From Deuterostichococcus epilithicus (Eukaryota > Chlorophyta > Trebouxiophyceae > Prasiolales > Stichococcaceae): DNA of 64,000 bases. Of the stretch, positions 1 through 58,224 are shown in pieces. The DNA lies in NCBI GenBank assembly GCA_033439295.1, contig JAVTLE010000004.1:558012-622011 (forward strand). The letters run 5' to 3'. Made by a program: the position numbers and the translations under genes. The notes under the pieces were generated by a model. It worked only from the letters and a program-made list of their open reading frames with translations, ran no database searches and had not been told where the DNA came from. The first letter of the stretch is position 1. Every line of letters starts with the position of its first letter.

Positions 1-1668
1 ATGAGACCGCGCGGCAGGAGTATCAGGCGTTTCTGCTGGAGGACGCCAAGCGCTTTCAGACGAGCAGACCGGCAAACTGGGCAGGTGGGCTAACAACCTG
101 CATGCGCAATTGGGCGGCGTCTCAGTATTCCCCAACGCAGCTTGTGCTGTGCACACTGCAAGACCATGCTCAGCAAATTCTTTGAGCAGTGTAAACATGC
201 CAATCAATGACTGCGCCTGTAGACCAGGCATGTGCATGCCCTACGCACAGGGTATGAGGGGCCCTGGATCGAGAACGCCTTCTTCGAGCACTGGCAGGCG
301 GCGCATGCAGCCGGCGTCGACCTCGGCGACCGGCTGTACCTGCCCGTCATGTTTTTCGACTGCTCCTTCTACTGCAGCGCCGAGCGCAAGGCGGACATGA
401 AAACATATCTCGGCGGCCTGCGCCGCGAGTACCATTACTTTATGGTGCTGCAGATCGGCAAGGGCATGGCCTGGCTGCAGATTGCTGTTCCGCCGGGTCT
501 GGACCTCATGCTGTTCGCCTCTGTCACCAGCCGCGGCGTGCGGACGGTGCCCATCCCGCTGCTGAAGGAGGTGCGGCCAGAGACAGCAGCGTGGCAGCAT
601 GCCCCTACTCACGTAAACAGGCACTCTGCTGGAGGTTCTGGTAATTCACTAAGGCGTTTGGTCGACACGAGCACACTTACGTACAAACAGTAATGCTGCC
701 GGTTTGTGCCATCATGCACTACTATGTTGAGGCGGGCGCTACCGGCGCCGCTGTATTCAGACAGAACTGATGGTACTGCCAGCTGCTGGCCTTCCCCCGT
801 GTGAGAGCCAGTGCTGTTTCGCATTCGCTAGACCCAGACGTAGTGTCCCAAGGCAGGTGCTGGCGCCGGCGGGCACGTGCTCCAGGGCATCGACCACCGC
901 CTGCTGCATGCGCAGGGCGGTTCATCTACGAGTGATTGCAACTCCAAGGAGCTGAAGCGTATGAATGCAGGTGCTGACGCCGGTGGGCCTGGCGAAGGAC
1001 ATCAAAGCCAGCTTCTTCGGCGGGCTGCACACGCACAAGATGCGAGGCGAGGTGCACGCACAGCTGGCGCCGCACGGCTTCCTGTTCGGAAAGGCAGACA
1101 ACGCCACGACGGCGCGCATCACCGAGCGCTCCAACTTCACGCTGGCTCCGCGCGGGTTCGGGTCCACGTCCTGGCGCCTGTATGAAGCGCTGCAGCTGGG
1201 CTCCGCTCCCGTGTACATCTGGGACTACGACCTGGTCCTACCCTTCCAGGTCCTGCTGCTTCACCCCGACAGCCTTCCCCACCTTCGCGTTTCGTTCAGG
1301 GTTTTGTTGCCACATGACTCGAAACTTACAGCAGCAGGGTTGCCGCTCCAGGGGGTTGCCACAGTGTGTCCGATGGAAGGTGTGTGAGCATGAGCGTGCC
1401 TGGCGGTGCATGACGTCGAGCCGTCCTGCCGCTGCAGGAGCTGCTCAACTGGAACGAGATGGCCATCATCGTCCACCGAAAAGAGATGCAGACAGTACCG
1501 CAGCGCATGCGGGACTTTGACCTGCCACGGGCACAGACGCTCATGGCGCAGTACAGGTACATGTGGACGTACAACTTCACCTGTGGGTACATAGTTGACC
1601 GGCTGCGCAACGAGCGTTGCTTTCCGGTGCCCTTCTCCACACGGGCGGATATCCCGGGCATCGAATAG
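1..1668 (+). CDS. Exostosin-like (GT47) glycosyltransferase, 5' end outside window
   Basis: Glycosyltransferase of the exostosin/GT47 type, expected in the Golgi lumen, acting on cell-wall or extracellular glycans. Exons: 1-84 (partial), 251-570, 971-1249, 1438-1668 with stop TAG; phases agree at every junction. The second exon carries the N-terminal half (GYEGPWIENAFFEHW and following). The third carries the hallmark nucleotide-sugar region, TLAPRGFGSTSWRLYEALQL followed by GSAPVYIWD, matching the exostosin pattern of Pro-Arg-Gly, then Arg-Leu-Tyr-Glu-Ala-Leu, then Pro-Val-Tyr-Ile. The last exon (ELLNWNEMAIIV) is the usual C-terminal Trp segment. No N-terminal anchor is visible because the start lies upstream. 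The exact donor specificity cannot be read from sequence. Intron 2 carries a decayed copy of the start of exon 3 (853-915). Confidence 0.85.
853..915 (+). repeat. Ghost copy of GT47 exon 3 start
   Basis: The bases from the acceptor CAG at 854-856 onward repeat the acceptor and first 18 bases of the true exon at 971, with 20 of 22 matches around the junction. Weaker similarity follows to about 915. The copy lies 114 bp upstream in the same orientation and does not keep a useful frame. Confidence 0.7.
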
Positions 1669-2260
1669 TCTGCGCTGTCATCACCTCCCTCAGAGAAATT
1701 GCTGTCACTCGCTCTGGCGTCATCTGCTTTGTACCAGCTGCCCTTGTGTTTGATGTTCGACCAGTGATGGCCTTCGTTCGCTGTGCCCTGGTGCACAATA
1801 AAGCTCTGCAGGTTGTAAGCGCGGTGGTGTGGTCTAGCTGCAGACTATTGCGAGCACGACCGGAAACCCCGTCCCTGTTCGCCAGTTGATTCAAGATCCA
1901 CCTGATCCGCCCTCTACATCCGTCCATAACACATGCGTCAATAACAGTGGCAGAAATTGGCATGGCGTACTTGTCACCGTTCACCGGGGCTTCGACATGC
2001 ATTTCCATGCGCGCAGCATCAATGCCACCTCCAGCAACTTCGTTAGTGTGTTGTTTGTCAGTCATTTTGCCTTCAAGACTGCCCACGGTTGGTCTCACGA
2101 CGACGAATGCTCAGCGTCGATGCGACGGCGAGAGCCTACAGTTTACAGCTTACATTGGAAACGGACAAAGGCGCGCTCAGACCGTCGCTTGAGCCGATCA
2201 GGGACTGCTAGCATATACTGCGTGGGCGCAGACAGCTGACTGCGGTACGGTCGGTGGCCG
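1669..2260. other. Convergent intergenic region
   Basis: The 592 bp between the 3' ends of the GT47 gene and the AMMECR1 gene. It probably holds both 3' UTRs. I see no protein, RNA gene or repeat in it. Confidence 0.6.
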
Positions 2261-3777
<1,517 letters not shown>

Positions 3778-4025
3778 GCCGGGCACGCGGATACGCATGA
3801 CCCTGGCTAATCTCCTGGCTAGAGCGACCAGAGCGAGGCTCAGGGATGGCTCCTGAGCCTCCAGCCCTGGTCTGCACCAAGCCCGCTGGCCCTTGTCACA
3901 TGCTGGCCGGCTGTCCAGGATCGCTTGAGCCGCAATCTAGGTCCGTACACCACTGGCTGAGCAACTGCACGTCAGTCGGCACTGTGCAAGCTGGAGTTCC
4001 AACCCAAAGGAAGTCGCCCAAACGT

Positions 4026-4062
<37 letters not shown>

Positions 4063-4397: not shown

Positions 4398-7300
4398 ATG
4401 ACTGCAGGACCGCTGCAGTGGCCTGCTGCCGCAGGGTCTCCGGAGCTGCAGTTGCGGGTGCATCGTTGCTTCTCTTTGAGATCACTCACTTACGTGCGCC
4501 GGCAGTCACCTGCTGCAACAGCAGCCAGTTGAAAATCGCAGTTCTTGTCACTGCGCATGATATACATTGTGAAATTCCATTGCATGGACAAGCAGACCAA
4601 GGACAGCGGCTGCGGCTCCGCACATGGCGGCTGGGCCTGACGCCATGTGCAATGCACTCACGAGGAGCAGCTGATCCGACTGGTGCCACGGCCGATGTTA
4701 CAATCATCCATCCGTGCTGTCCGCAGGTCGCCAAGGCGAGGGTGCTGTGCGTGGGCGCCGGCGGCATCGGCTGCGAACTGCTCAAGACGCTTGCGCTCAG
4801 CGGCTTCCGGGACATCGAAGTGGTGCGTCCCTCCACGACGCACGCAAACCTGTCCAGAACCTTGCGCTGGATCAGCGCTGCAGGTCTAGCGAGCGGAGTG
4901 CGCACAGCAATCATGTTGCACGGGAGGCAGAACACATGCCTCACTCAGCATGACGTCTGGAAAGCACAGCGGAATTGCATGCAGATCGACCTGGACACCA
5001 TCGAGACGAGCAACCTCAACCGGCAATTCCTGTTCCGAAAGCGGCACGTTGGCCAGAGCAAGGCGGCCGTCGCGGCGGAGGCGGTGCGGCGATTCGCACC
5101 GGATGCCAGGATTAAGGCGCACCAGGTGGCTCTAGAGCGCATGCCTCCTGAGTACCTGCCAAGTTTAATCACATGACAGCAGGGGGACGTCCACGCTTGC
5201 ATGCAGAGCTGGCTCTGCCCCTGGACCACCGGGAACAGTGCGCCCAGGGGCCGGGCACCAGGCGCATGACTGGGACCGCGACTGCAGCGCTCCACTTCCG
5301 CCTTGCGGCAGCGGAACGCGCACCGGTCGGCTCGCCGGGCGGCATCTCCCTGCGCTCACCGGCTCTGCGCTAGCCCAGCGCGCCGATGCGTCCCTGTGCC
5401 GCAGGGCAATGTCAAGGACAGCAACTACGACGTGGACTTCTTCAAGTCCTTCGACCTGGTGCTCAACGGCCTCGACAACATGGAGGCGCGGCGGCACGTG
5501 AACCGCCTGGCGCTCGCGGCCGGCACGCCGCTCGTGGAGTCTGGCACGGAGGGCTACCTGGGCCAGGTTGGTTTAGGATTAAGGGCGTCCTGCGACGGCC
5601 ACTCCGCCTCCCCTAATCTCCTGCTTTCGTCTTCCGAGTTCGCAAAAAGGATTTTGGAGTTGGAAGGAAAAAAGTTTTAGGCCGAGCGGCGCTACGTCAC
5701 CCTGCGCACGCCGCTCGAGGAGTCCGGCACCGACGGCCACATGGGCAAGACGGGCATTGCAGCCTCACCAAGGCCGCTGAAGGACGAGGGTTGTTGTTGT
5801 TGATGTTGTTCTCTGTGTCCATGCCCTTTGGATGGTCTGTGCCGCGCGGGACGCCCCGGGGCCGCCGGCTGTCCTGCCGTCTCATTTGCACGCAACCATG
5901 GGGATCAGTGGGGAGCCCAGGAATCCAAAAGCAGCATGGGTGCGCGGCGTGGCATGGCACGGCTGCCTGACGCTGGTTGCCAAGACGCCCTTGGCTGGTT
6001 CGTGGGCAGCCAGCATCAGGTGGTGATGTCGCACTTGGCACACCCATGCTGCAGCACCCTTGGAGGTGTTCCGGCTGACGAGTGCACTTGAATCCCCAGA
6101 AGGCTCGGGCAAGTCATTTCAATGACTGGGCAGCTGACGTTGGCACTCGAGACACACCCAGTCCGGATGATGAACTGCTCCCAGTGCCCGCGTAAGGCGG
6201 CGCTTGATACGCACCGGCTCTGTCTCATCAACACCAAACTATTCCACCTCATGCTGCACAGGTCACAGTGCACCTGAAGGGCAAAACGGAGTGCTTCGAG
6301 TGCCAGCCCAAGGCGGCGCCGAAATCATACCCGGTGTGCACCATCCGCAACACTCCCGACAAGCCCATCCACTGCGTCGTGTGGGCCAAGGACCTCCTCT
6401 TCCCACGCCTCTTCGCCAGGTGATGTTAACCTGCCGCTGTCGGGCCTCTGCTGCATCTGCATTCCGACCCAGTGGGGTGTACGAACTTCATCCTGAGTCT
6501 GCCGAGGCTGCAACTTTGGACTCCGCTGCAACATGCGCTGTTCTTCTGCCAAGCATGCAACCTGGCCGCACCTGTCCAAGTAGGAGCAGAAGCTCTGCAC
6601 AAGCTCTGCAGGTTGCGCATCAGACTGCAATCCTGGCTGCTGTCTTCTTAAATACTGCGCCTGTGTTGATTGCAGGCCAGACACAGTGACAGATCTGGAC
6701 GAGGCAGAGGCGGCGCCTGCGGTCGCCACTGCTGTCGATGCAGCGGAGGTGTGCAATTTGTCCTGACTATCTCGTCAACGACCTCATTGAAAACGCGTCA
6801 CGGCTGGCTCCTCAAGGCACACAGCGGTTCGACATTGCAGGGGTGTGCTTGGCGCTGAATCGAGTTTGAGATCACCCGGAAATCTCATGGGAGATACCGC
6901 ATACTGCATGAGGTTTACCGGTGGGAGTAACAATAGAAATTGTGCACTACTTTTTAAAGACGTCAATTCCAGACGTCAACGTTGACATCTGTTTGAAGTG
7001 TAACAGACATATAAATCCTTTGAAGAGTAACCGGCCTGCCGCTGGCACCTGCAGCCGCCTCTGCCGGACCCAGACGCCATGGCGGCAGCGGCGCAGGCGG
7101 CGGAGGGGCCGGCCACTGACGCCGCGGCGGGGCAGACGCCAGAGGAGCTGGCGGCAGCAAAGGCAGAGGCCGCCAAGCAGGTGCTGCCTTCTTGCACTTG
7201 ATGAACAGCAGCACCCATCCTTCCTGGCATGGCGCGGCCTGTGGGGCAAGATACTTCTCGCGTGAGCGCGCTCGCCTCCCAACCAGATATCACACGCTAC

Positions 7301-10300
7301 GGTGGGTCATCATCTGCGCTGCATGATTGCGACGACCTGGAGTCCTCCCAAAGCCAGAATGGCAGGTCTGACGCCTCCTCAGCAGCAGCGAGAGGGCCAG
7401 CAAGCAGGCCTGCGCTCCAGCCCCCGCGCGGACGCTCAGCTGCCCCCGCGGAGGCGGGCTCCGACCCCGAAATGCAGCCCCGACGAGGGCTGGCAGCTGG
7501 CTGCCCCCATGCGAGGTCCGTAGTGACCCGACAAGTCCGTGCCGCAGGCGGCGGAGGATGCGAGCTTCTTCCTGCGCCAGGACGGAGAGGGCGCACATCC
7601 CTACGCGCGCCGCATCTTCCGCCGCGTGTTCACCACCGACATCGAGCGCGTCCTGCGCATGGAGGTCGGGGCTCCCTCCCACAACCCTGCAGCCTGCACC
7701 CTGAAGCTGCATCCGAGCCGCTGCCCAGCTGTAGAGGCAGGGTGATGGCAGCGGGTCCTTTTCACCGGGCTGAGACGGTGCCAGGCGGCACTCGTGCTTG
7801 GCCGCGCCGCACATCCCTTCACTGTATCACAGCTGCAGCGAGCAGCTCTGTCGCCACCACTGTCAGAACCGAGAGCCGCGCCTCAGGCGCCATGCTGTGC
7901 TTGGCGGTCCTGTGGCCTGCCCTGTGTCGTGGTGCCTCGGTTCCACGTGTGCGCGGGGATGCGTCCGGGGCGGTTGAGCACAAGCTACGGCATACAGACC
8001 CCCCGTCCACACTCTGCAAGTTGCCCAGCCTTCAGCAGACGACCCTGCGATACAAAGCTGTGCTGCTAAGAGGTGGCGCAGGATCTGTGGCACAAGCGGA
8101 CGCCGCCGAAGCCGTTGGACCTGGACGTTCTGGTGCTGCCCAGACCCTCAGGCGCCGAGGTGCGTCATGGTGTCGTTGCCCTGGCGCCGAGTGCGCTGAA
8201 GGGCAGATGCCTCTGCCCCACGGCACAGCGCCACGCAGCAGCCTGGCGGTGCCTTCTCTTGCTTCGGTTGGGATGCATGCGCTGCCGCATGCTCCGGTTG
8301 TTTTGTGTTGCCAGAGGCGGCGGAGGGGCCCTTGCATGCGCCGGTCCTGTCTGAGGTGTGGCTCCCCTGTGGTATTCAGGAGCCGGCAGCAAACGGCATG
8401 GCAGCTGCGGCGCCGGGGGCGTCGGCGTCAGCGGCGCTCGGCCTCACGAACCCGCACGCTCAGCTCAGCATCAACGTGTGCCCGCCCAACAGACCTTCAT
8501 GCCTCCCGCTCATCCTTGCGCAATGTGGTTGCCACAACACCCGCAGCTCGGCCACGCCAGCATGCTACGCGTCGCTGGGGCTGCAGGCATCGGCTTGAAG
8601 TGCCTTTCTGTCCAGCGCATAGCGCTGTACTGCCGCTGTGGCCCGGCCAGCGGCTGCAGTGCCGACGCACCCTGGTCAGACCCGCACCTCGAGGGCAGCT
8701 GCACACCCTGCGACTTGCCTCAAGCATCTTGCATCTTGCAGGAGCCGGCGGCACTCTTCCCAGAGGCGCCGCAGCAAACCCTGCTCGCTGCCTCTCAAGC
8801 ACCCGGCAGGAGTGAAGATATGTAGCTATTTTGATATGTTGAAGCGAGACTTCTGGGTGCGCCGGCACTGCCTGGACCACAAAGCTCCTGGGTCCTTGCC
8901 CCAAACCCTCTCACGAGCTGTTTACGATCATCGTCTCACCCTGCAGGAGCTGGCTGCGCTGTTTCTGGAGGCCACGCGGCAATACCTGGAGCACCGGCCG
9001 GGGGAGGTCGGCTGTGCCATCTTTGACAAGGTGCGCCGGCTCGATAAATGCCCCCCCGCCATCAATGGAACAGTTTTTCCCCCCGATAAAGCGGGGCTTT
9101 CCTCGGCATGCAACGAGGGTAGAGCGCAGTGTCTGAGGCGTCCGCTGATGGCCTCGCCACAAAACGCTCAGGCAGCATGCGACATGCTCGCGGCCGGTCA
9201 TTGTGAGCTGTCCAGGCCGTCCATTCGAATCAGAACGACTGCCTGAGCGTGTACATGTCGGTTACCATAATGTCGATCGTGCTGCATAATGAAATTATCG
9301 CTGTCTCTTCTCGCCTTTGGCGACATTTTTCTGCGCCTCTACCTCTGTCTGCAATCTCGAGAGGCCTCAGATCCGGCAATGGACCTTTCACCTGGTTGCA
9401 AGAGAAAGACCTGTGCCGGCGGTGGCCAACCTGCGGTCTGCAGACACGCGCCCGCACGACTCTCCCGAATTAACGCAGCGGCTCATTCTCTTTCGAAAAA
9501 TCATACACCGACACACACACACACACACACACGGGTTTTGTACTGTGGCGGCAGGAGGACGACCTGGCAGTGGATTTCGTGGCGGCGGCGGCCAACCTGC
9601 GGTCGGCCGCCTACGGCATCCCGACGCAGTCGCTGTTCGACGCCAAGGGCATGGCTGGCAACATCGTGCACGCGGTGGCGACCACCAACGCGGTCATCTC
9701 TGGCCTCATCGCCCTGGAGGCGATGAAGCTGCTGGCACGCGCGCCCGACGCCTGCCGGGTGCGACCACATTGCGCTTTTTGAGGAAAAGTTACAAGTGAA
9801 GTGATCCAGAAACGTGGGGCAGACATGGAACACTCCGAAGCGTGACGAAGGTGGCAGTCTCATGACTGCAATGGCGCCGTGGCCGTGGTCATCAGCACTG
9901 CCAGAGGTGGTGAAGCTGCTGCAGCGGGTTGCAGAGCACAGACACTCTCTGCTGCGCCCTTCAAACGAAAATTATACCAGATCGGTGGAGATCAGACTCG
10001 AGTCCAGACTCAAATCCGGTCGCCTCTGCATTTGCTCTTCTCAACACCTGCCTACATCCCACTGACCGCTGCACTGGGTGCCCCTTGCCTGCAGAACACG
10101 TTCCTGCAGCAGCACGTGAGCGCAAAGCGGCTGGTGCAGCCCATTGGCACGTGGCCGCCGAGCAAAAAGTGCATCGTGTGCGGCACCGCGCAGCTGCACC
10201 TGACCATCAACACCGCCACAACGCCGCTGGGCGCCCTCGTCGACCAGGTGCTCTGCTGCCTGTGGTGTTNCAACCCCCCGGTTCACTGCTGCTGCTGCCG

Positions 10301-11997
10301 CTGCCGCGGCTGCGTCATTGTCAGTACTGATGCGCTTGGGTGCTAGAGGTGCCATTGTCTGACCCCAGTCCCACTGCCTTGGTTCGTGCAAGAGGCAGCT
10401 GGCGCTGAAGGGGCAGGCTGCTGACCGGCGTGAGGCTTTCTTCAGGCCAGGTGCTGCAGATGCGGCCGGCGCTGATTGGCAGCCCACCGGCGCCGCCGAT
10501 GCCTTCATGCACGAGGAGGGGCAGCCACCGTAGCGGCTGGCGCAGGATGCTCGCGCGGCTGTCCGGCCTGACATCTGTCGAGCCTGACTCCCTCCTCGTG
10601 TGCTGCTGCCAAGGTGCTGAAGAAGCGGCTGGCGCTGGTGAGCCCCACCGTCGTCGCGGACGCCTTCATGTACGAGGAGGGGCCCGACCTGGAGGCCGAC
10701 GAGGCGGCCGAGTCGGCGGCGCACCGCCCCACGCCGCTGGCGGGGCTGCCCGGCGGCGGCATCCGCCACGGCTCCATCGTCGCGGTGTCGGACCAGGCGC
10801 AGGCCTTCGAGGCGACGCTCGTCGTCAGCCACCGGGTGCGCCACCGGTGGCTCTGCTTCCAGTGCTGTTCCGGAGGTTTTGGCAGGTTTTGGAGGGTTTG
10901 TAGATTGGTGGCCCATTTGCTGTGATGCCCCTGTTGCCCTGGCAGGAATCTTTTTGGGGACAGTGGGAGGCGCAGGCGGGTGGGAGGCGCAGGCGGGCAG
11001 CGGCGCGCGCCGCAGTCAGGCCCCACCAGCAGCCAGCACTGCCGCTCGAAGCGGCTGTCGAGAGTGCGAAGGTCCCGGGAGGCGCTCTGCTGCAAGGAAG
11101 GATTCAGCCGAGAAGGAGCCCCAGGGCTGGCGTGCTGCGTTCTGGCAGCAACCCTTGACGGCATCGCTTTCACAGAATGGACAAGATGCAGTCCGGTTAT
11201 ACGGCGCCCAGTTTATTCGGTATTGTGACTGTGCCGGTAGGAAGAATGGGACGAGGAACAGGAGCCGGAGGGCTTCCTGCTGGAGGGTGCTGTGCCTGCC
11301 GTCGTCGCCGATGGAGGTGCGTCTCGGCACTCGATCCTGATCTCTATATCTCTGCTATATCTGTTTGCCTTTGTCTATATCTATCCATGTTGCTGCCAAC
11401 GAGGGAGCGACACAGGCTCCTGGCCCTTTCCGGCCCCCCTCTCTTCTGCTGTCCGAACCCTTCACTGCACACAATGCGGTAGCTGTGCGCGTGGCACAGC
11501 CTCCTGCCCGCCCTGCCTTTGCAGGTCGCTGGGCTCCACGAGTAGGGCAAGGTGGCTGTGCATTTGGAGAAGTAAGCGTGCGTCAGCGCCTGTGAAGGTG
11601 CATCTTTTTATGCATCTCTCGCGCAGCAGGATGCAGGTCTTTTTTCTTGCGGCACAACAGCACGAGCGCTCTGCCATTTGTCGCAGACGAGGATGCAGCC
11701 GGCGCAGCGCAGCAGCCGGACGCCTCTGCGGCGGGCGCCTCCGACAGCGACGACGGCTTCGAGATGCTCGAGGAGCCTCCAGGCCCGGCGGGCATGGCCG
11801 CCGCAAATGGCACCGCCGCCGCCGCTGACTCTGCCATCACCACCGCCAGCGCAAACGGCAAGCGCAAGCGCGAGCCGGTGGCCACAAACGACCACGAGGC
11901 AGGGCCATCATCCGCCGTCAAGCGCGCGGCGCTCGCCGACGGCGTGGGCGCCGTGCTGGCTGCTCCCGACGACGATGACATCATAATCCTGGAGTGA
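4398..11997 (+). CDS. UBA2: SUMO-activating enzyme subunit 2 (UBA2/SAE2)
   Basis: Catalytic subunit of the SUMO E1. With SAE1 it adenylates SUMO, carries it as a thioester and passes it to UBC9 in the nucleus. There are 16 exons: 4398-4457, 4727-4822, 4985-5125, 5405-5566, 6262-6419, 6676-6748, 7055-7180, 7548-7664, 8082-8159, 8380-8475, 8947-9030, 9555-9758, 10095-10247, 10614-10835, 11241-11316, 11687-11997. They give 718 aa with every junction in phase. Visible parts: nucleotide loop [34 protein letters not shown]; zinc cysteines ECFEC and CIVC; catalytic Cys in PVCTIRNTP; adenylation segment [11 protein letters not shown]; ubiquitin-fold domain in exon 14; [16 protein letters not shown]; basic GKRKRE, a likely nuclear signal; C-terminus DDDDIIILE, which resembles a SUMO-interacting motif. 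It is longer than plant SAE2 (about 625 aa) because of Ala/Glu-rich inserts (exons 6, 7 and 10) and the tail. Confidence 0.93.
5690..5757 (+). repeat. Ghost copy of UBA2 exon 4 end
   Basis: Bases 5708-5753 match the end of exon 4 (5525-5570) at 37 of 46 positions. The copied coding potential reads [12 protein letters not shown] against [12 protein letters not shown]. The donor site has decayed (AAGACG instead of CAGGTT). The copy lies in the following intron, 183 bp downstream, in the same orientation. Confidence 0.8.
6179..6223 (+). repeat. Probable ghost copy of UBA2 exon 5 segment
   Basis: Resembles exon 5 at 6295-6339 (the Cys-rich segment): 20 of the first 25 bases match, including the core AAGGCGGCGC, then similarity fades. 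Weaker than the other copies. Confidence 0.5.
8738..8783 (+). repeat. Ghost copy of UBA2 exon 11 start
   Basis: GCAG plus the following 42 bases match the acceptor and start of exon 11 (8943-8988) at 34 of 46 positions, 205 bp upstream of the true acceptor. Confidence 0.72.
9415..9443 (+). repeat. Ghost copy of UBA2 exon 12 segment
   Basis: Contains a 15-base identical core (GGCCAACCTGCGGTC) from exon 12 (9555-9758), about 160 bp upstream of the true segment. Confidence 0.55.
9511..9532. repeat. (AC)11 microsatellite in UBA2 intron 11
   Basis: Eleven AC units ending 22 bases before the acceptor of UBA2 exon 12, so length changes here could affect the branch-point to acceptor distance. Confidence 0.9.
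10449..10522 (+). repeat. Ghost copy of UBA2 exon 14 start
   Basis: From the acceptor AG onward, 23 of the first 26 bases match 10612-10637. The segment GCCTTCATG(C/T)ACGAGGAGG is also shared. Small indels break the frame between the two blocks. The copy sits 163 bp upstream of the functional exon. Confidence 0.85.
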
Positions 11998-35656: not shown

Positions 35657-36118
35657 GATATATGACGCGCGGGAAGCTGCAGAAGAGACGTCCGTATAAA
35701 GGGCGCCCATTCACTTGTCGTGGGCGCATGGCTGATTTTAAGAAAGCCAGTGTGACTGGTGGGCAGGCGTGGCTGCGTGAGGCAGCGGCCTTTTGAGAAC
35801 ATCTGGAGGTTTCAGAGCTAAGGTCGTTGCTGAGTGGCATGGCAAGTTACGCTGCGCCAGATTATAAGAAAGGCGCCCCCGAATGCACTGAAGCATTCGA
35901 ACGATCAGCGACCAACCCGGGAGAACGAGCTGTTGCTGCAGAAAAGTTTGAATGTTCGTTCGAAGGCAGATCTTCGTTCAACGAAATGCTCGCACTTCCA
36001 AGCCTCTGCTGTCGCGACCAAGGAAATCACGAGTCTGAAATCCACTATCTGCCGTCCCCTTCACATCTCACGCCCCTCCTTCTGTCAGCATTTCGGCGCA
36101 TAGCAGCTGTCAATGTTA

Positions 36119-36171
<53 letters not shown>

Positions 36172-36995
36172 CGCAGCACGCAGCAGCAGCAGCAGCGGCG
36201 ACAGTGCAGGAGGCACTGGTCCACAAAGAACCAGCTGCCTCGTGCCTGGATGTCACATACAATGCCGCTGATATCAGCAATGCAGAGCAGCCATAGCAGC
36301 AGGCCAACAGAGGCTGCCATAATCTACCGTTGCTGCTGTTACTCGTTGCTGCCATAAGCTCCTCGTTGCTGACTGCTTCCGCAGCAGCAGCGGATGTTTC
36401 ACCACGCAGCACTGGCCCCACCACTGCACCACATCTGGCTCTGTTACTGTGGCGCCAGCGGCGGCAGCAACGGCAGCAGCAGCAGATACGTCCCATAGTT
36501 GAAGCCTTAAGCCGATGCTGCGGCGGCGGCGTCAGCGGCGGCTGCAGCAGCAGACCCTAATGTCCTGCAATGTGCAGTAGGTAGAACCCGGAACAATAGA
36601 CAGGGTCATGGAGCTTACAGCCTTGCAAATCTTAAGTCGTTTCCGACAGAGCAGCCAGCTCCCGGACCACTGTGAGCCGGCCTCATCAAGGTCGTTCATC
36701 CCAAGAAGGAAATGTCTCATTCTCCAGGAACTCGCTTTCTTGTTTTTAACGTTTGCCGCCTCGTGAGCGCCGCCAATCGCCCACGACAGGATCTATCACG
36801 CCCGCGCAATTTCAGTTTCATCCTGACCCATCGATCGACCTGACCCTGGGACGCTGTCTCGAACAAAGGCGTCACAAGTTTGCCTTTTGCGTCGAAACAT
36901 GCTGTGAACATGGGACCGCATCCTTGACGAACTGTCAGCAGATATAGATCGCGTGTCACCGCCTCTCATTTGCTCAGCGGCAGGTCCGCGACGTA
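35657..36995. other. Intergenic region with CAG/GCN-rich low complexity
   Basis: About 1.34 kb between two plus-strand genes. The 36100-36560 part is dense in AGC/CAG/GCG triplets, with the longest run at 36121-36170. Long frames here are homopolymer artefacts (Ser, Leu, Cys, Ala runs). No gene was recognised. Confidence 0.5.
36121..36170. repeat. (AGC)16 triplet repeat
   Basis: Fifty bases of uninterrupted AGC triplets, followed by further interrupted CAG runs to about 36200. Confidence 0.95.
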
Positions 36996-39551: not shown

Positions 39552-39755
39552 GATAGTCCAAGTACGCTTCGTGGCTGCTGCGCTAGCTTCTGGCTTATGG
39601 ATCCCGAATTGTGACGCTGCCGATGAGAGATGCCCGGGTGTCTCTAGCGGGCCCGCCACCTGCCTGGTCATGTAGTTCAGACTCCGCTCGCCGTTGTGCG
39701 ACGCGATGGTGCTTCCAGTTGCCTGTTGTTCACGTGCGCTACTTCCTCTTCGCCA

Positions 39756-48170: not shown

Positions 48171-51100
48171 TCACATTCCGTAGCCAAACACCACCTTGAT
48201 TCGCCTCAGTATCTGCTCCTGCCAGCCTGTGTCACAAGCAAAAGTGGGCGTCGGCACATTGGTCGAATTGATCGCAACCCCTGACTGGGCGCCTTCGGAG
48301 CTGTGTCACTATGCACAGTGGATTTGATTGAGTGACCGTCACACTGTGATGAACGCCAGGGGGCTTGGCGCAAATGAGGTCGCTTTTGCGTACATTCGCA
48401 CCCGTTGGCCCCTGACAGACTCTCGAAGCAGTCCAGGGGGCATGTGCTGAGTGCAGTTCACAAGCACAAAAGCATTCCATGCACAGTGCTGACAGCAGTG
48501 CAGGCGCAGGGACCGAATGCATTCCAGGCTAAGGATTGAACACAGGGCAGCCGCGGAGGACCACGCACCGATCTCCGCAGAGCGCTTCACATCGCCGTTG
48601 CCAAAGCGGTCCTCGCGCGGAATGCCGCTCTGTCGCAGCCGCAGCACCGTGGTCCCCGTGTCCGGCTCCTCCAGCGTGATGGTCACCTGTGGGGCATGCA
48701 GCACATGCTCGATGATGGGTTTCCGGTACCGAGGTGCTTTCAGTGCGCTTGTCCGGCTCCTTCGGCGGGATGGTCGCCTGCCATTTGGAAGGTGTCGAAT
48801 CGATGATCGCTGACCCTCCTGACGATATGATGCAAGCTGCAGATGTCCATGCTGCGGCTGTGCCCGGCTTCCCCGGCCTGGCTGTCAACTGCGGAGCAAG
48901 GGCATTGACGAAACTCCTTTCCCTTCTCTTTCATCTTTTTTCTTCCCGCTTACCTCCCCGCTGATGACGTCAAGAGGATGTCAGGCGGCGCGGGCTGCGG
49001 CAAGGAGCCAGCCGGCACGCGTGCCGTGCAGGATGCAGCTGATCTGCAGCTTCCTGAGAGCCCTCCCACCAACCCCATTCTCCTCTCAAGACACACAAAA
49101 CCACACGTTGACCGCTGGCGCCGTCCGGCCAGAGCCGCTGGAGCACCACACCTGCGCCAAGCGCGCCCCGGCGGCTGCACTCGGATAGCCACCTATTAGA
49201 GAACCCCCGTCTCACGAGCCCTTCACCTTCACCCCCAAACCAACAAAGTGACCCACCTTGGACACGGCGCCGTCCGGCCAGTTGCTGAAGCGCCACTCCT
49301 GCACCAGGCGCGCAGGAGCATCCACCTCCAGGAAGGTCCCCGTCACGGAGCCGCCGTACAGCGAGAAGGCTCCGCCGGGCTGCGGCTGGGAGGACGCCTC
49401 GGCCTGCGTGAACGCGCGCAGCCGCCGCTCGTCCGTGAGCGCCTGCGGCGGAAGCACCATTGCGCTATTGCGAGTGATTCTGTTGGCAGATGCCAAGCGC
49501 GGAGGTGTTGCCGGGCTGATACCTGGCTGCTGGCCTTCGCCTGCAGGAACACGCGCAGCTGCCACTCGTCTGTCAGCGCCTGCTGGGGCATGGAACGTCT
49601 TTGTGTAGGTGATGGAGATAGCTGAACTTAGAAAAAGAAGGTGCCGCCGGGCTACAGCTGGCTGCTGGCCTCTGCCTGCGGTGAGCCTTCCTCCTGCTGC
49701 TGCTGCTGCTCCTGCTGCTGGAACGGCTGCCGCTTAGCGGCAGAGCCAGAGTGAGGGTGGGTTGGCGACGCCATGCGGTTTCGAGGGCCGAAAGCACTGG
49801 AGCATTGTAGCAGCAGGCTCAATTTTTGCGATCCGCATCTCTTCATGTCTTGATAAAGGAAGCAGACCTCGAAGCGTTCCGGGGTGAAGGCGGCGTTGAG
49901 GCACTTCTCCAGCTCCAGAAACTTCAAGGAAGCCTCGAGAACATGATCAAGTTTGCTTACGCGTGCTGAGTCCCAACTGTGGTGACTGTGGCGCACCTCG
50001 ATGTATGTCAGCAGGGCGCGCGTAGGAGCGCTCCTGCAGCTACAAGGACTTGACACATACCAACGAAATGATCAAGTTTCGATCTGTGCTGGAATTGAAA
50101 TGTGCAATTACAGCGTACCTCGAAAATGTCGGCGGGGCGCGCGTAGAAGCGCTCCTCCAGCTGCAGGGACTGCGTCGCGCCGTCATCGGCGTCGCGCTTT
50201 GGTGCCTGCAGGGCAGGTTCAGGAGAGTGGGTGTGTGTCACCGCGACTACGGTTCATTCTGTCGAGAGGGTCCAGGAACAGTGGTGTCGCCTTGGTCTGG
50301 TGGTGGCAGCTCGACAGCATTGTCCTGTCAGCGGCAGTGCGCTTCACCGCCTGCTGCAGGGCATCCAGAGGGATGAGGTCCTGGAAATTCAGTCATGTCG
50401 TGGTGATTCCTCTTTGCCGCCCTGTCAGACGTCTTGAGCAGTTCGGCTTGCAGGGCCATGCATGTGTCAGGTTTGTCATGAATCCCGCCCTCCCAAGCCC
50501 TGCTCTGCCGGCAGCGGCTGCACCGGACTGCTGTGTGTTGCAGGCCGTTGCTGCCAGGCGCCAGAGGGTGGGCTGCTGGGGCTGTGCCATCAGGAGCGGG
50601 CTGCCAGGTCTCTGCGGCTTCACCTGCTGAAGACTGACCGCACCTTCGGCTGCCGCGCGGGCGCCGGCTTCGCGGCGGGCGGCGCCGCCGCCGGCGCCCC
50701 TGTGGCGGCCTGCGGACCTGCGCTGGAGGCGGTTGCGCCTCCGGTGCCGCCCGCAGCGGCGGCGGCGGCGCCTGNGCTGGCTCCCGGCGCGTGCGGGCCG
50801 CCGGCGCGCAGCTCCCTGACGAACTGCGCCACCCTGTCGAACACCAGCTGCGCGAGCGGGGACATGCACCTTCAGTCGAGGTGCCGCTCTGACAGGCTGG
50901 CAGAGGCACCGACCTTCAGGCAAGGCGCCGCGCCAACGGCTGCCTCGCCAAGCATGTCCCGATGTGCACGAGGCAAACGGGCGCATTTCCAACGGAGTGC
51001 CAGTCTGGCTCTCTTGGCAGCTTGCCGGCGCGGTCCGTTTCATGCCAACACTGAAAGTGGCGGCGCAAAGGCCAGCACGCCAAGTTAAACCTGGTGCACG

Positions 51101-52553
51101 CCCGAGAGGCGCAAGGACGGCTGCGCACATATCCCTTGAATTGGTTTGCCACCGGCCCGCGGCATGCGCCCTCTGCTGACGACTCAATTCTGCGGCTCGC
51201 AGGCGAGCTGGCGAAAATGCTTGCGTTGCTGCGAGCAGGGTGTCTATCAGTCTCGCTGCAGATGTGGGCGCCGCACCCGCCACTGGGCGTGGCCATGCCC
51301 TGCATGACGGCGGGCGGCCGTGCCTGGCCAATCGCATGCAGAGCAGCCCGCGAGCAGGCTGGAGTGCGAGTGCGGCTGCAGATAGCGAAACGCGCCTGCC
51401 GGTTGGCGTGGATGCCCTGCTTGACGGCGGCCGCGCCAGGCAGGTCCGTGGACACCAGGATCTTCATCTCCGGGTCCTCGTCGTGGTTCTCCTGTAGCGA
51501 GTGGGGATCAGTGGTCGTGATAACATCAACAGCAGCGAGTTATGAGCAGTGGTCGTGGTAGCATCAACAGCAGGAACGTTTTTGAATGTAGATGCTAGCG
51601 TGGTAGGTGACGTTCTGCTGCGACTGCGGTGTGGCATGAGCACTGATTCGAGACACACAAGCCTGCAGGTGCTTGGCCCATGCTCTGGGGTGACTGACCA
51701 TGTGCAGTCAGCCCAAGGCCACTGGTCCGCAGCTGTGAGATTCACTCGCTCGCTCGTTCAAGGCATGCATCACACCTCTGAGATGTAGGGCAGCTGCAGC
51801 ACGCCGCGAATCTCGTCGCCCGAGCCCGCGGCCTTGCCGCTGTATTTGACGCCAACGCTCAGCTCGTATGTAGCGATCAGCTTGCCCTTCCGCACGTTGA
51901 TGATCGAGTCGCCTGCCATGATGACAGCAGAGCTGAGCCCCGCTGCAGTGCTGGAGGTCAGGTTGGAAGGCAGCCTGACGGGTGCCAATCATGTACTGCA
52001 ATGAACTGCACCCTCTCCACGCCATTCTGCGTGATTCCATGCATATTAGGGGGCAAAGAAGACTCGCTGCAGGTTGCTGCATCCAGGCGGCTTCCCCCTG
52101 CGTTTGTATTTACTGCACAGCGCCAGCTATGCGGACCTTCAACAGTGTCCAGCTCAGTGGTCACAGCAGAGCCACTGCCGTTGGAGAACAGCTGCATGCC
52201 GCCAAGCAGCTCGGCCAGCCGCTGCCTAGTCCACCCTGACACGTCCTTTTCCGTCCAGTGCCAGGCGCCGACGTTCGTGCCGTCCGCCCGCTCCTGCAGG
52301 GTGGGCGCAGGCAGTTGCTGAAGTGCAACCGGTAGCGGTGAACGCGCAGGGCGCCACGCATGGATCCTGTATTGGTGAGTGGAAGGATTGCAACATGTGG
52401 ATCGTGCCATCTGCGATTGAACTGCGCTGCATAGGCGCACATGTGCGCGCCGTCGCACGCATGTCCAGCAGTACGGCTCATGCATTTGGAGAACAGAGAA
52501 CGGCAGCTCACGCTGACGATCCAGCGTTCATCTCCTTCGCCAAGGCGTGCCAT
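48171..52553 (-). CDS. AHA1: AHA1, activator of HSP90 ATPase
   Basis: Cytosolic co-chaperone that binds HSP90 and stimulates its ATPase. Nine exons: 52553-52512, 52293-52137, 51912-51776, 51491-51396, 50847-50644, 50205-50119, 49442-49257, 48686-48569, 48226-48171, giving 360 aa in phase. The N-terminus MARLGEGDERWIVS is typical. N-domain: DGTNVGAWHWTEKD, SIINVRKGKLIATYELSV, VKYSG and ILVSTDLPGAAAVKQ. A Gly/Ala/Pro-rich linker in exon 5 contains one undetermined base (50775). The C-terminal AHSA1/Bet-v1-like domain follows: QSLQLEERFYARPADIFE, LTDERRLRAFTQAEAS, LVQEWRFSNWPDGAVSK, VTITLEEPDTGTTV, QSGIPREDRFGN. The final exon reads GWQEQILRRIKVVFGYGM. Intron 4 begins with GC (CAG/GCGCGT). Introns hold at least five decayed exon copies, listed separately; one is still potentially spliceable. 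Confidence 0.93.
48745..48782 (-). repeat. Ghost copy of AHA1 exon 8 start
   Basis: On the plus strand, TTGTCCGGCTCCTTCGGCGG and GATGGTCGCCTG echo the true exon end region at about 48657-48688 (TGTCCGGCTCCTCCAGCGTG, GATGGTCACCTG). The acceptor side is included. Confidence 0.65.
49117..49170 (-). repeat. Ghost copy of AHA1 exon 7 (downstream half)
   Basis: Shares 16 identical bases (GGCGCCGTCCGGCCAG) with 49266-49281. Alignment continues through the ACCTGCGCCAAGCGCGCC segment, which corresponds to TCCTGCACCAGGCGCGCA of the true exon. Confidence 0.75.
49523..49579 (-). other. In-frame exon-7 duplicate, potential cassette exon of AHA1
   Basis: A 57-bp copy of the first third of AHA1 exon 7 in the preceding intron. 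It is bounded by AG before 49579 and GT after 49523, has phase 0 on both sides and no stop codon. It encodes ALTDEWQLRVFLQAKASSQ, identical to the true exon start (ALTDERRLRAFTQAEASSQ) at 14 of 19 residues. Nucleotide identity over 49541-49588 is 39 of 48. Whether it is ever spliced is unknown. Inclusion would duplicate 19 residues; loss of two Arg and a Glu-to-Lys change argue for relaxed constraint. Confidence 0.5.
49635..49690 (-). repeat. Second ghost copy of AHA1 exon 7 segment
   Basis: On the minus strand it reads AEASSQL, then a stop, then PGGTF, corresponding to AEASSQPQPGGAF of exon 7. It lies upstream of the cassette-like copy, so this intron contains two decayed copies in series. 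Confidence 0.7.
49995..50050 (-). repeat. Ghost copy of AHA1 exon 6 end
   Basis: Bases 50011-50050 match 50132-50171 at 35 of 40 positions (shared GGCGCGCGTAG and AGCGCTCCT). It lies downstream, in gene orientation, of the true exon. The donor-side sequence is also recognisable. Confidence 0.82.
51287..51327 (-). repeat. Ghost copy of AHA1 exon 4 end
   Basis: GCGTGG plus ATGCCCTGC(A/T)TGACGGCGG are shared with 51406-51440 of the true exon, with 2-bp indels. It lies about 120 bp away in the adjoining intron. Confidence 0.72.
51508..51573. repeat. Young 38-bp-period tandem duplication in AHA1 intron 3
   Basis: 28-base units at 51508-51535 and 51546-51573 are nearly identical (GTGGTCGTG and CATCAACAGCAG shared). 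This shows that short tandem duplication is recent or ongoing in these introns. Confidence 0.85.
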
Positions 52554-53514: not shown

Positions 53515-56500
53515 ATGGCTGTGCCACCCGCTGCGAATGGCGGCCATGGCGCGCAGCAGGGTCGGGCGGATGCTGACATCGAGCTGGCGCTCGCATCTGC
53601 TGAGGATCCAGGTGCGCATGCTACGCACACGCATGCAAAAGCCCGTGTTCGAACGGAGCTCCGAGTCATCACGCCTGATCGCCATCGCCACCGCCTGATC
53701 GTGCTGCGGCACGCAAGTTTCTTCACACAAACAGATAGAGTTGGCCGCCGGCGGGGGCGCCGCCCTGTGCCTACCTGCTAGACGAGGAGAAAAGTCTGCG
53801 GTCCAACCTCGCAGCTCGCACAGAATGGCTTCCAGCACCCCGTGTGCGCCTGCGCAGGCGGCAACAACTTTGCCTTCAGCCCGGGGCTCGCGCCGGAGAC
53901 CGCTTCCGCAACGGAGCGCCAGCGCCTCAACACCAGCGCCAGCAGCAGCGGTGGCAGCGGCCTGCGCAGCGCGGGGGCGGCGCCCGGCAGCAGCCAGTAT
54001 CTGCGTCAAAGTGCGCTCACATCTGGCAATCAGTGACATCCGACGGTCACCTGATCAGCGGTAGAATTGTGTGGCATCTCATGGTGTGTCCACACGATGA
54101 TGCTGTGCACGTCACGAGGAGCTGGCATTCTACGGCGCTCGAGTGGTTATCAACTGTTCGTGTAGTGTGCGGTCGTTGAGCTCACACTGGCAGAGGTAGC
54201 CGTCAAGGCTCTGAATCTCATGTATCTGTGCAACTTCGCGCAGACCGGTGGGTGCAGTGGAAGTGGATCGCGGGCGGCTCCTGCGGCGTGCTGCTGCTGC
54301 TGATCGTGCTGTCGGCGCTGGCGGCGGGCGGCGGCGGCGGCGCGCGGCTGCCTGACACCTCGCACAAGACCTACGCCCGATTCCTCATCGTCGGGTCGGT
54401 GGCTGTGTCCACGCTCGCAAAACCGCTCGCAAGCAGACTGCGTCCCACCATTGTTGTGCTTCGCCTGTATCAGTGCACGGCAGCTGTGCAGGCAGGCAGC
54501 ACAGCTTTGGAGGCTGTTTGGGGGCCTGTGCCTGCTGCGGCACTGCATGCATATGCAGAGCGCATTGTGAGACAGAGACATATCTTTTGGCGCACCCCGC
54601 AGGGACTGGGGCCGGCAGGGACTGCACAACCAGAGCGACGTTGCCACGGTCATGGGCGCGGTCGCCCATGACACGCGGCCAGATTTCGTCATCTCCACCG
54701 GCGACAACTTCTACGAGTGTGAGTGCGCCTTGCCTCGTCCGAGGACCTGCACATGGCTGCCGCAGTTGGTCATTGCTAGGCCAGCAGCTGTCTGCAGAGA
54801 ACATGCTGGTTGGAGTCAGTTGAAGGGCCGCCTTCCATCTGAGCCGGTGTGACGTCGCGTGTCATCTCGACCTACCTTGCGGGACTGGCACGGCCTAACA
54901 TCGGCAGTCTGACATCCCCGCCACGGATTGTACTATGATCCGCCGTCATGACTACCACCAAATGAAAGTCTCCTGTGCCTGCAGCCGGGCTGTCGTCGGT
55001 GCAGGACGACCGGTTCCGCCATGCTCTGCCATCGTGCCATCAAACCTACCACCAAACACACCTTTCCCATGCCCGCAGCTGGGCTGTCGTCGGTGCAGGA
55101 CGACCTCTTCCGGTCCTCCTTCATGGACGTGTACTCGGCCACCAGTCTCAAGGGCATCCCCTGGCATGCCGTCCTGGGGTGCGCGCCCCCTGCCTAAGGT
55201 TTCGGGGTTTCCCGAACACCCCGCTGTGTGTGTTTTGACCGTGGCCCTGGCGGCCTCTGCAGCAGCACCAGCCCTCTGTGGCAGGTGGTGCTCCCTGCTG
55301 TGTCGGTTGGCCCCCTGACCAGGGCTCGGCCGCCAGCCGCGCGGCGGTCGCCTGAACAAGTTGGGTGCTCGGAGATGACTGCTCCCGATTTGCTCCCATG
55401 GAGAAGGCGGTGCGTGTTGCTGCTGCGCATGCCCCTGCACCTAGCCTGCGGTCGACAGCGGGGCCGGCGATGCTGCCGAGGATCTTCAACCGGAGCTCGA
55501 GGTGCAGTCCTGCGTTGCGAACGATTCCGATGGCATGCTCTTTCCCATGTGCCGCCAACGGCTGCCATGCAGGAACCACGACTACGGGGAAAGCGAGCTG
55601 AAGGCGCCGGCAAAGTGCCCAGCGGCCGACCCGGACTGCTTCTACAGCCCCCTGCACCAGGTCAGCTGGCATTCGCCTGGCTGCTGGGCAACCTCGGGCT
55701 GCAGACCTCTGGCTGCGCTGTGCGCATGACAGCAGCTGGCTGCTGCGACATGGCGCAGGCCTCAGCGGCATCTCTGGCCGGCTGTGGTGGGTCGCGTTGA
55801 CGCGCTGGCGGCACCAGTCGGGCAGGGACCAAAGGCAATGGCCTGACGACTGTTCCTGCTACAACTGATACACACTTTCTACTCCCTGCCGTCACAGCTG
55901 GGTTTGCGGCTGCGGTCACGCGGCCTTGCAGTGGCACTGCCAACGCAAAGCCCATCTCTTCACGTGAACTTACTGTTTTTCTTTTCGTGCTCTCTGCTGC
56001 CGCAGCTGGACATGGGGCTGCGGACGCGGGCCACCCCGGTGTGGCAACGCTGGCTGATCGCTGTGTTCAGAGCGCAGCTGTGGTCAGCGCGCAATGAGGA
56101 CGACAGCAGCCCGGGAGACCTGACACCCGGTCCCTGCTGCCGCAGCTGGACGTGGGGCTGCGGACGCGCGACGCGCGGTGGCACTGCGCCCGCACCTTCC
56201 AGCTGGCGCTCGGGGACGGAAAGGCGGAAATTTTCTTCATCGACACCAGCCCCTTCATCGAGGCCTACCGCAACGTCACCTGGGTCAACCAGGAAGGTGT
56301 GTCGCGCACGACGGGCCCTCCTGGTGACGCGGGCGCGGTGCCCCGCACGACCTCCTGCGCAGCGCGCCTTCCGCGACTCGGTCCAGCTCGGGCCAGGGAG
56401 GGGGCGGCTGCTCACATGCAAATGAGCTGCTCGGCGCCATCTGTCTCACAGCAAGTGCATCACAGCGGGGCGGGTGCAGCGGCGCGACCCTCAATTCTCT

Positions 56501-58224
56501 TTTCAGAGCCCGCGTCCACTGGTCCGCAAGCACACGCAGGCGCGCGCTGCGCGAGCAGAGCCGGGGAGATGTTGTGCGTCCATTCCCCACACCAGCTGCG
56601 CCACAGCAGGTCACAGGCAGCAGCAGGGTGGATCGCGGCCCGTGTCCCATGTGGGTGGCTGTGCACAAACTGAGCTGGCGCGGGCTGCGAGAAAGAGGTG
56701 GAGAATGCACCGCAAGGGCAGCTGCTGGTCGTGGGTGGAGCAATGCAATCGTGGAGCGGGACGGGGCAGGGGCAAGCATTAAAGGGGCAGGTGGTATATG
56801 TATGTATTGCATCGAGCAGCATCGTGACCGCGACTTGCGCATGCGGCGCAGGCGGGCTGCACGAGCAGAGCTGGCGCGGGCAGCTCAAGGAGTTTGAGGC
56901 GCGCCTGGCGGCCAGCGGCGCGCAGTGGAAGCTGGTGGTGGGGCACCACCCCATCTACTCCTCGGGCGGCATGCACGGCGACACCGCCGAGCTACAGCAG
57001 TACATTGAGCCGCTGCTGCGCAAGCATCGCGTGCAGGTGGGCTTCCTGTTGGAAATGAACAAATAACGAACTCATGGAGTCGCTGGTCGTTGCCGTCTGT
57101 CGATGACGGGCTGCTGCCGAGCCGCAGCAGTACATCTGGCCCCTGCCGCGCAGGCACTGCGTGCAGGCGAGTCTTTCTGTGTCCGAAACGGCCATGTGAG
57201 GGTTGATCTTGCCGCCATACGCCTCTCCACCCTCACGCTTTCCTGGGAGGGCCTCAGCCGGTGTCTCTCGGTTGCAGACCGCCGCAGAATTGCGGCTGCA
57301 ACGAGGCTGTAGTCGCAGCACAGGCTCCCTTGAGCTGCGCAGACATGCTTTGCTGGCGTGCCTCGGATTTTCCTGCATCCACGGTGTGAGCCTGCCTATA
57401 AGCAGCGGAGCACGGCCGTGCACCTATGAACCTGCGCTGAGCGGCCTGAGCGTGGACCCACCATGACAGGAACCTGAAAGCTGCCTGAGCGATCGCGTCT
57501 CAGATCATCAGCCACCGGAACATCGTGAGGGCGTTTCTATGAGCGCTTCCTGATGAGGGCTGCTGTCTGAGAACACTGGCATAGTGAAGGATGTCAAATC
57601 TAATGCAACGTGCCTTCTTCAACTCTGCTGCCCTTCGCAATTGCAGGCGTATTTCAGCGGCCACGACCACCACCTGGAGCACCTGGTGGTGCCCAAGGCA
57701 CCGGGGCTGGACTACATCGTCAGCGGCGGCGGGTCCCAGGTGTGCCCTGCCACTGCTTCTTCTGCTTCCCCTGCTACCCCCACATTCGCGGAACTTGCCT
57801 TTCAACTGGGCGGTCCGCGCAGGCCTGCCTGCGGAAGGGTTTGTTGCAACAACACCAGCGCCGACGGGGCCCACCACTGCCCAGCCGCCGTCAATGCCGC
57901 CGCTGGGCTTTGCACGAACTGCGGCATGCGCCTGCACTTGGGCCCGGCCGCCGGCGGCCCTGTCAAAACAGAGCTGTATATCCCTGGACAGCTCCCAAAT
58001 GAGCCTCACATGTGCCTGCGCAGGTGCGGCCGGTGCGGGAGGGCGTCAAGGAGTCGGAATTTGCGTACTATGGCTCGGGCTTTGTGCAGGCAGTGCTCGC
58101 GAGCGAGAGCCTGGAGCTCAAGTTCTTCGGCATTCTGTCGGACGAACACGCCCCCGTGCACAGCCTGACCATCTCGCGGGTGCCGCACAAGGGCCGCCGC
58201 CGCCTGCTGCGGTCGGAGCTGTGA
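53515..58224 (+). CDS. Purple acid phosphatase with N-terminal membrane anchor
   Basis: Metallophosphatase of the low-molecular-weight purple acid phosphatase type. Ten exons: 53515-53611, 53858-54010, 54244-54394, 54603-54718, 55079-55178, 55573-55660, 56146-56296, 56852-57036, 57647-57739, 58024-58224, giving 444 aa in phase. The five metal-binding blocks are all present: [23 protein letters not shown] (across exons 5-6), [12 protein letters not shown] and [10 protein letters not shown]. Unlike secreted relatives, it has an 83-residue Ser/Ala/Gly-rich N-tail and then one span ([17 protein letters not shown]), so it is probably a type II membrane protein with the enzyme in the vacuole lumen or outside the cell. 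Phase-perfect joins of exons 1-3 support the tail. Introns contain at least three ghost exons. Probable role: phosphate scavenging (inference from family). Confidence 0.9.
54977..55019 (+). repeat. Ghost copy of phosphatase exon 5 start
   Basis: 38 of 43 bases match 55071-55113, including the CAG acceptor and the 20-base identical stretch GGGCTGTCGTCGGTGCAGGA. The copy lies 94 bp upstream of the true exon and encodes [12 protein letters not shown] against [12 protein letters not shown]. Confidence 0.9.
55994..56030 (+). repeat. Ghost copy of phosphatase exon 7 start
   Basis: The segment from CTGCTGCCGCAG onward matches 56134-56170 with only about two differences, including the polypyrimidine and acceptor region. 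It reads LDMGLRTR against LDVGLRTR, 140 bp upstream of the true exon. Confidence 0.9.
57116..57167 (+). repeat. Ghost copy of phosphatase exon 8 end
   Basis: 42 of 52 bases match 56986-57037, ending at the former donor (GTGCAGGC in place of GTGCAGGT). It lies 130 bp downstream of the true exon end. Confidence 0.85.

Follow-up and report, generated by a model that had tools for sequence, protein, structure and literature searches.

Worn copies of neighbouring exon parts within the introns of a 64-kb genomic window, probable relics of short local tandem duplications

Introduction

Little is known of the origin of intron DNA, since introns lose the traces of their source too quickly. A study of widespread internal gene duplications, some of them with intronic boundaries, reportedly deals with cases in which coding exons or introns are kept or created, rather than with partial copies in decay. 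Here, we describe a stretch of 64,000 bases of contig JAVTLE010000004.1 (hereafter, the window; 61% GC, three N), whose introns hold worn copies of parts of the neighbouring exons, far above the level of chance. All of the results presented below rest on this one window of one assembly.

In a potato RdRp gene, a short tandem duplication took in the 3' part of an intron together with the 5' part of the exon that follows and copied the acceptor signals, and the same gene carries an 83-bp tandem duplication within an intron (PMC4974935). The likeness to the window lies in a short, boundary-spanning tandem duplication with the acceptor copied; the difference is that the potato case is one recent event, which produced a newly spliced intron and an insertion of exon sequence, whereas the window holds about 20 old, unconstrained copies inside existing introns. 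The tandem exonic duplications and intron sliding described in Drosophila are likewise local duplications in coding genes that leave one copy intronic and free to change, with footprints that are expected to fade; the Drosophila cases rest on proto-splice sites, whereas the copies in the window are still alignable and bear no mark of intron gain (PMC2891723). Mutually exclusive exons that arose by tandem exon duplication likewise began with the copying of exon sequence into an adjacent intron; such exons are functional, whereas the copies in the window are partial and unconstrained, two of them with stops (PMC5740500).

Single events in the window are of a known kind, and it is their density and their near-exclusive association with exons that is unusual. 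A literature search turned up no account of decayed exon-edge copies at such density, which is weak evidence of novelty because most subscription journals lay outside the search.

Results

Intronic copies of exon edges and chance controls

A blastn self-comparison of the window gave 17 pairs, of which 14 are direct and less than 500 bp apart, one is direct and more than 5 kb apart, and two are inverted. An ungapped scan at a score of at least 16 found 123 segments at shifts of 20-699 and none at shifts of 2000-2679, with one after 100-bp block shuffling. Long GCC/GCT and CAG-type low-complexity stretches occupy positions 14880-16250 and 36000-36700 and dominate the raw repeat counts; their removal is needed before any repeat statistic. 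Once the 97 segments starting in these two clusters (14.88-16.25 kb and 36.0-36.6 kb) were removed, 26 remained, and 24 of these match an exon with a copy in the adjoining intron or, in two cases, one copy with another. Of the remaining two, one is a 38-bp tandem within an intron, at 51496, and one a GC-rich match inside a single exon. Low-complexity sequence aside, the similarity is on the same strand and at short spacing, with none long-spaced or inverted, as in decayed local tandem duplication. Minisatellites or simple repeats were considered as a source and rejected, since a tandem-repeat scan with 21 rows includes no exon edge from the set of 16 that were copied and the low-complexity clusters had been removed.

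In total, 20 copies derive from 16 exon edges in five genes (GT47, UBA2, the PAS kinase, AHA1 and the purple acid phosphatase, PAP), namely 13 copies of 10 exon starts and seven copies of six exon ends (Table 1). The methyltransferase would be a sixth gene, with one weaker and one marginal copy.

When each exon was compared with its own flanking introns and with introns of other genes at a score of at least 15, similarity was found in 14 of 126 own pairs and in 0 of 322 others; eight pairs with an exon under 25 bp or an intron under 60 or over 1500 bp were excluded. Five exon edges (971, 10614, 22763, 50119 and 57047) had earlier been placed 1-11 bp away (968, 10615, 22762, 50116 and 57036), and with those earlier values the test gave 15/126 against 0/315. 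The main counts use the final edges, whereas the exon-share simulations and the ungapped and gapped near-range scans of noncoding pairs described below used the earlier five. Because some exon edges had been set by hand, the test was repeated on fully automatic gene models, with similarity in 11/139 own introns, 1/267 introns of other genes, 1/417 shuffled introns and 0/139 own introns after reverse complementation.

These observations agree with the first-pass annotation in its central claim, that introns of named genes carry copies of the adjoining exon, clearly so for five genes and more weakly for the methyltransferase; the own-versus-other comparison is the control that it had proposed. 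Eleven of the 12 places that it named hold copies (853-915, 8738, 10449, 22815, 22911, 33110, 49523, 49635, 54977, 55994 and 57116), and the twelfth, 33251, is marginal (P = 0.05). Ten copies come in addition to those places, near 5706, 6176, 9413, 48743, 49117, 50005, 51272, 55883, 56542 and 56662. Its wording that copies occur throughout the window was too strong: they lie in 13 of the 67 modelled introns, and none reached the threshold in AMMECR1, DUF268 or the exons at 60-64 kb. The spacing between copy and exon, given there as 90-260 bp, measures 91-310 bp. Most copies are of exon edges as it had stated, except that those at 6176 and 9413 match sequence 20-30 bp inside the exon.

Structure and decay of the copies

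Adjacent spacings range from 67 to 205 bp with a median of 125.5 bp, and four pairs (170, 248, 272 and 310) cover two units. In about five of the 20 copies, the similarity passes the exon edge into the intron and nearly fills the unit (136/147, 112/121, 129/161, 89/117 and 77/94 bp). The AHA1 exon start at 49442 has two intronic copies with a period of about 136, and ATGATCAAGTTT is found in both intron parts of the duplication at the AHA1 exon end 50119. Just upstream (on the minus strand) of the AHA1 exon starting at 51491 lies the 38-bp tandem, at 51496-51573.

Differences between the copies and the real exons are spread over codon positions 1, 2 and 3 as 35/227, 38/226 and 31/220 (P = 0.73), and two AHA1 copies (49636..49680 and 50005..50050) contain in-frame stops. 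Coding use is therefore excluded; the copies are non-coding, and one duplicate is unconstrained. Mutually exclusive or otherwise alternative duplicated exons were accordingly rejected, the copies being partial, two with stops, and flat across codon positions. Within the cores, the intron parts are more diverged than the exon parts (31/137 against 104/673, P = 0.044), as would be expected if both intron copies drift, against a single one of the exon copies.

Divergence is homogeneous over the 20 copies (104/670; chi2 = 19.5 with 19 degrees of freedom, P = 0.43), the mean difference between copy and exon is about 15%, and young copies are missing. If very young duplications collapsed during assembly, some of the youngest could have escaped notice. 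From exon to copy, the 22 core segments show 56 transitions and 48 transversions, with AT>GC (38/185) more frequent than GC>AT (35/485), counts that are unpolarised without relatives; a hypermutation origin was rejected, as no such pattern is present in these changes. Relatives sought in viral contigs (3 loci) and genome contigs (54 loci) were all filed as viral or prokaryotic, and none was useful. The best of the 54 loci, NYVR01000102.1 1800-2327 (filed as Planctomycetota), encodes an E1-like protein with 41% identity to the portion of UBA2 that served as query; it may represent contamination from a eukaryote or a prokaryotic enzyme of the E1 type.

On visual inspection, nine of the 10 assessable exon-start copies retain the acceptor AG (three of the 13 were not assessable), and the donor GT is absent from three of the seven exon-end copies. 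The 13 introns with copies have a median length of 570 bp, compared with 286.5 bp for the 54 others (P = 7e-5) and 326 bp for the 31 others of the same five genes.

Scarcity of noncoding-only duplicates

In the ungapped comparison at a score of at least 16 and shifts of 60-319, exon/noncoding pairs account for 21 segments and noncoding/noncoding pairs for six. Four of these six fall within a single CAG-like tract, and the other two are part of the PAS-kinase and PAP copy sets. At lower ungapped scores, noncoding pairs are in excess at near range, with 30 near against 9.2 far at a score of at least 12 and 17 against 3.6 at a score of at least 13. Of these 17, 12 lie in low-complexity tracts or near copies, leaving five against 3.6 expected. 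When gaps were allowed, near-range noncoding similarity outside the copies stood at the control level for a score of 15 (1/993 near, 0/1399 far and 1/993 reverse-complemented); at a score of at least 13, it was more frequent near than far (2.1% against 0.7%) but equal to the reverse-complemented control (2.1%). Outside low-complexity sequence, the clear noncoding short-range duplicates are the 38-bp tandem mentioned above and a 17-bp tandem at 10963-10997.

Simulations of duplication and decay

Random tandem duplication followed by neutral decay was simulated and compared with an exon share of 17/18, the value as entered; the final tally is 16 edges and 20 copies against two small noncoding-only tandems, and the P values for exon share are therefore approximate. 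For an age t of 0.15-0.2, the simulated exon share came to 0.34-0.61 when indels were set at 0.05-0.3 per substitution; a constant rate gave 0.42-0.49. Random duplication at a constant rate gave P values of 3e-6 to 6e-5; it predicts neither the homogeneous divergence nor the scarcity of noncoding-only duplicates. An old set of similar age (t of 0.25-0.3 with 0.15-0.3 indels) gave an exon share of 0.69-0.95, and very frequent indels (0.6) at a lower age likewise gave at least 0.69. In a separate simulation, such an old pulse (t of 0.25-0.3, indels 0.2-0.3) also reproduced identity, core length and flank decay reasonably, with P values of 0.038-0.89 in 12 Kolmogorov-Smirnov tests, one of them below 0.05. 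Uniform ages yielded the observed homogeneity in 0.1-0.3% of simulations, although the choice of the best core itself favours homogeneity.

Gene models and catalogue of copies

The gene models come from a small gene finder anchored on codon use that we take to be green-alga-like, and several exon edges were placed manually on the basis of homology. The GC content at third codon positions of the models is about 0.88. The final models have 67 introns, with 61 GT and six GC donors and AG at every acceptor. Pfam matches back the models for AMMECR1, ThiF with UBA_E1, protein kinase with GAF, DUF268, Methyltransf_22, AHSA1 and Metallophos, while the match for GT47 is under the curated cut-off; solved structures also back the UBA2, AHSA1 and PAP models. 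An Rfam scan at the gathering threshold and a tRNA scan of the window gave no matches.

Table 1. Intronic copies of exon parts in the window (d, spacing in bp between copy and exon part)
Feature	Position	Strand	Details
GT47 exon-start copy	850..915	+	real exon from 971; d=114; 22/25 ungapped; gapped P=0.004
UBA2 exon-end copy (of 5523-5566)	5706..5749	+	d=183; 84% over 44 bp; donor GT lost
UBA2 exon-part copy (of 6292-6319, exon from 6262)	6176..6203	+	d=116; 82% over 28 bp; P=0.001
UBA2 acceptor and exon-start copy (of 8937-8988, exon from 8947)	8732..8783	+	d=205; 73% over 52 bp; AG kept
UBA2 exon-part copy (of 9579-9607, exon from 9558)	9413..9441	+	d=166; 90% over 29 bp; P=0.001
UBA2 acceptor and exon-start copy (of 10603-10683, exon from 10614)	10440..10522	+	d=163 then 161 (2-bp indel); blastn E 3e-13 for 10449-10522; extension 129/161 bp
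PAS-kinase exon-end copy 1 (exon ends 22763)	22820..22863	+	d about 103; 16/16 core plus extension, P=0.01
PAS-kinase exon-end copy 2 with donor region (exon ends 22763)	22904..22957	+	d=170; 81% over 31 bp plus weak extension
Methyltransferase exon-end weak copy (of 33000-33036)	33093..33141	+	core 33110-33141, gapped P=0.001; under the threshold (score of at least 16) of the ungapped scan
Methyltransferase exon-end possible second copy (of 33000-33036)	33252..33325	+	marginal, gapped P=0.05
AHA1 acceptor and exon-start copy (of 48652-48689)	48743..48780	-	d=91; 82% over 38 bp; AG kept
AHA1 exon-end copy (of 49266-49313, exon end 49257)	49117..49166	-	d=147-149; extension 136/147 bp
AHA1 acceptor and exon-start copy 1 (of 49396-49451)	49533..49588	-	d=137; 80% over 56 bp; AG kept
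AHA1 exon-start (49442) copy 2 (of 49364-49408)	49636..49680	-	d=272; 78% over 45 bp; in-frame stop
AHA1 exon-end copy (of 50126-50171, exon end 50119)	50005..50050	-	d=121; 87% over 46 bp; extension 112/121 bp; in-frame stop
AHA1 exon-end copy (of 51391-51433, exon end 51396)	51272..51316	-	d=117-119; 80% over 45 bp; extension 89/117 bp
PAP acceptor and exon-start copy (of 55036-55112, exon from 55079)	54942..55018	+	d=94; 79% over 77 of 94 bp; AG kept
PAP acceptor and exon-start, more diverged copy (of 56131-56170, exon from 56146)	55883..55922	+	d=248; 78% over 40 bp; AG kept
PAP acceptor and exon-start, least diverged long copy (of 56131-56168, exon from 56146)	55991..56028	+	d=140; 95% over 38 bp; flanks dissimilar
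PAP acceptor and exon-start copy (of 56838-56874, exon from 56852)	56525..56564	+	d=310; gapped P=0.001
PAP exon-start copy (of 56858-56884)	56662..56688	+	d=196; 85% over 27 bp; P=0.001
PAP exon-end copy (of 56986-57049, exon ends 57047)	57116..57180	+	d=130; 78% over 65 bp

Discussion

Based on the results presented above, the copies are probably relics of short local tandem duplications that spanned an exon-intron boundary. The duplicated unit, of a size given by the adjacent spacing of 67-205 bp, would take in the boundary; the gene would keep splicing at the duplicate that preserves the reading frame, and the other duplicate would become intron, decaying without constraint, so that the intron grows by about one unit. 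Given the homogeneous divergence and the lack of young copies, either an old pulse or a targeting of exons is needed to explain the scarcity of noncoding-only duplicates. The duplications may be old and similar in age, and those of the pulse that fell wholly in noncoding sequence may have decayed past recognition because both of their copies drift.

The first-pass annotation had proposed repeated local duplication followed by decay; same-strand duplication of exon plus intron and unconstrained decay are borne out, whereas a steadily repeated process does not fit the homogeneous divergence and the missing young copies. The greater length of copy-bearing introns is only consistent with its suggestion of intron growth, as long introns also offer more room for copies. 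Its further idea of new exons finds no indication here, given the flat codon positions and the two copies with in-frame stops.

Several findings weigh against boundary-spanning duplication in an old pulse. In several copies, the similarity is confined to a short core. The PAP copy at 55991-56028 is identical to its exon at 36 of 38 positions and ends abruptly on both sides, which is more readily explained if a short segment was copied than by a tandem unit of 140 bp. In mixed-age simulations matched for ascertainment, the observed flank similarity was on the low side (per-event P of 0.03-0.73, 17 of the 18 events being matchable). At moderate ages or a constant rate, both simulation sets gave an exon share of 0.25-0.61 against 17/18, and with few indels (0.05) even a t of 0.25-0.3 gave only 0.45-0.48. 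Finally, the pulse parameters were chosen for their fit.

The abrupt ends at 55991-56028, together with the low flank similarity, therefore keep as a candidate a process aimed at exon edges, in which duplication, or else templated copying of short segments as breaks are repaired, would be targeted there (for example, by transcription, R-loops or splicing), so that noncoding-only copies rarely arise. We consider this unlikely, albeit the most serious alternative. It would account directly for the 21 exon/noncoding segments against six noncoding-only ones, none of which is independent of the CAG-like tract or the copy sets, for gapped noncoding similarity at the control level, for the failure of constant-rate random duplication and for the sharp-ended, least diverged copy at 55991. 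However, an old pulse with ordinary decay yields a similar exon share without any targeting, and several units clearly contain long stretches of intron. The noncoding excess at lower ungapped scores also speaks against targeting, although 12 of the 17 pairs at a score of at least 13 are in low-complexity sequence or near copies, as does the near-range excess over far pairs in the gapped comparison, yet that excess equals its reverse-complemented control. In a broader form of this idea, short local duplication would be, or in the past have been, aimed at the boundaries of exons and introns, perhaps coupled to transcription or splicing, and would have been a major source of intron DNA in this genome; the window would show only the part of the process whose decay the constrained exon slows. 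We regard this as a rather doubtful proposition.

Retention of the copies by selection, whether as splicing decoys or as regulatory copies of splice-site regions, is quite improbable. The acceptor AG survives in most exon-start copies, and several events have a core that is better preserved than its flanks, as would fit such a role, but this AG survival is not clearly above what a per-site divergence of about 16% allows, the donor GT is gone from three exon-end copies, and coding use is excluded as described above.

In the tandem-duplication (AGGT) model of intron gain of Rogers, each copy-bearing intron would itself have been born of a duplicated exon segment, and local tandem duplication with coding sequence is a step that this model shares with the duplication of boundaries favoured here. 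However, the surroundings of donor and acceptor are alike in none of the 67 introns at a score of at least 10 and in two at a score of at least 8 (0.85 expected), and the mean donor-acceptor score is 2.96 within and 2.98 between introns. The surroundings being no more alike within than between introns, the copies are not AGGT intron gains; they also sit inside introns longer than the copy spacing, and this origin is very improbable. An assembly artefact from haplotype or chimeric joins is just as hard to credit: there is a single assembly with three N in the window, but the mean difference of about 15%, the two stops, the varied unit lengths and the occurrence in at least five genes all argue against it.

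Under the preferred reading, in which the copies are relics of short tandem duplications across exon-intron boundaries, the exon preserves the source, and old duplications therefore stay visible; exon-anchored copies act as slow clocks. If general, they would offer a direct way to count and date the duplications that lengthened introns. Green algae of the core-Reinhardtinia have conspicuously long introns (PMC8226300). Again if the finding is general, and assuming that the window comes from such an alga, duplications of this kind may be one possible source of those long introns.

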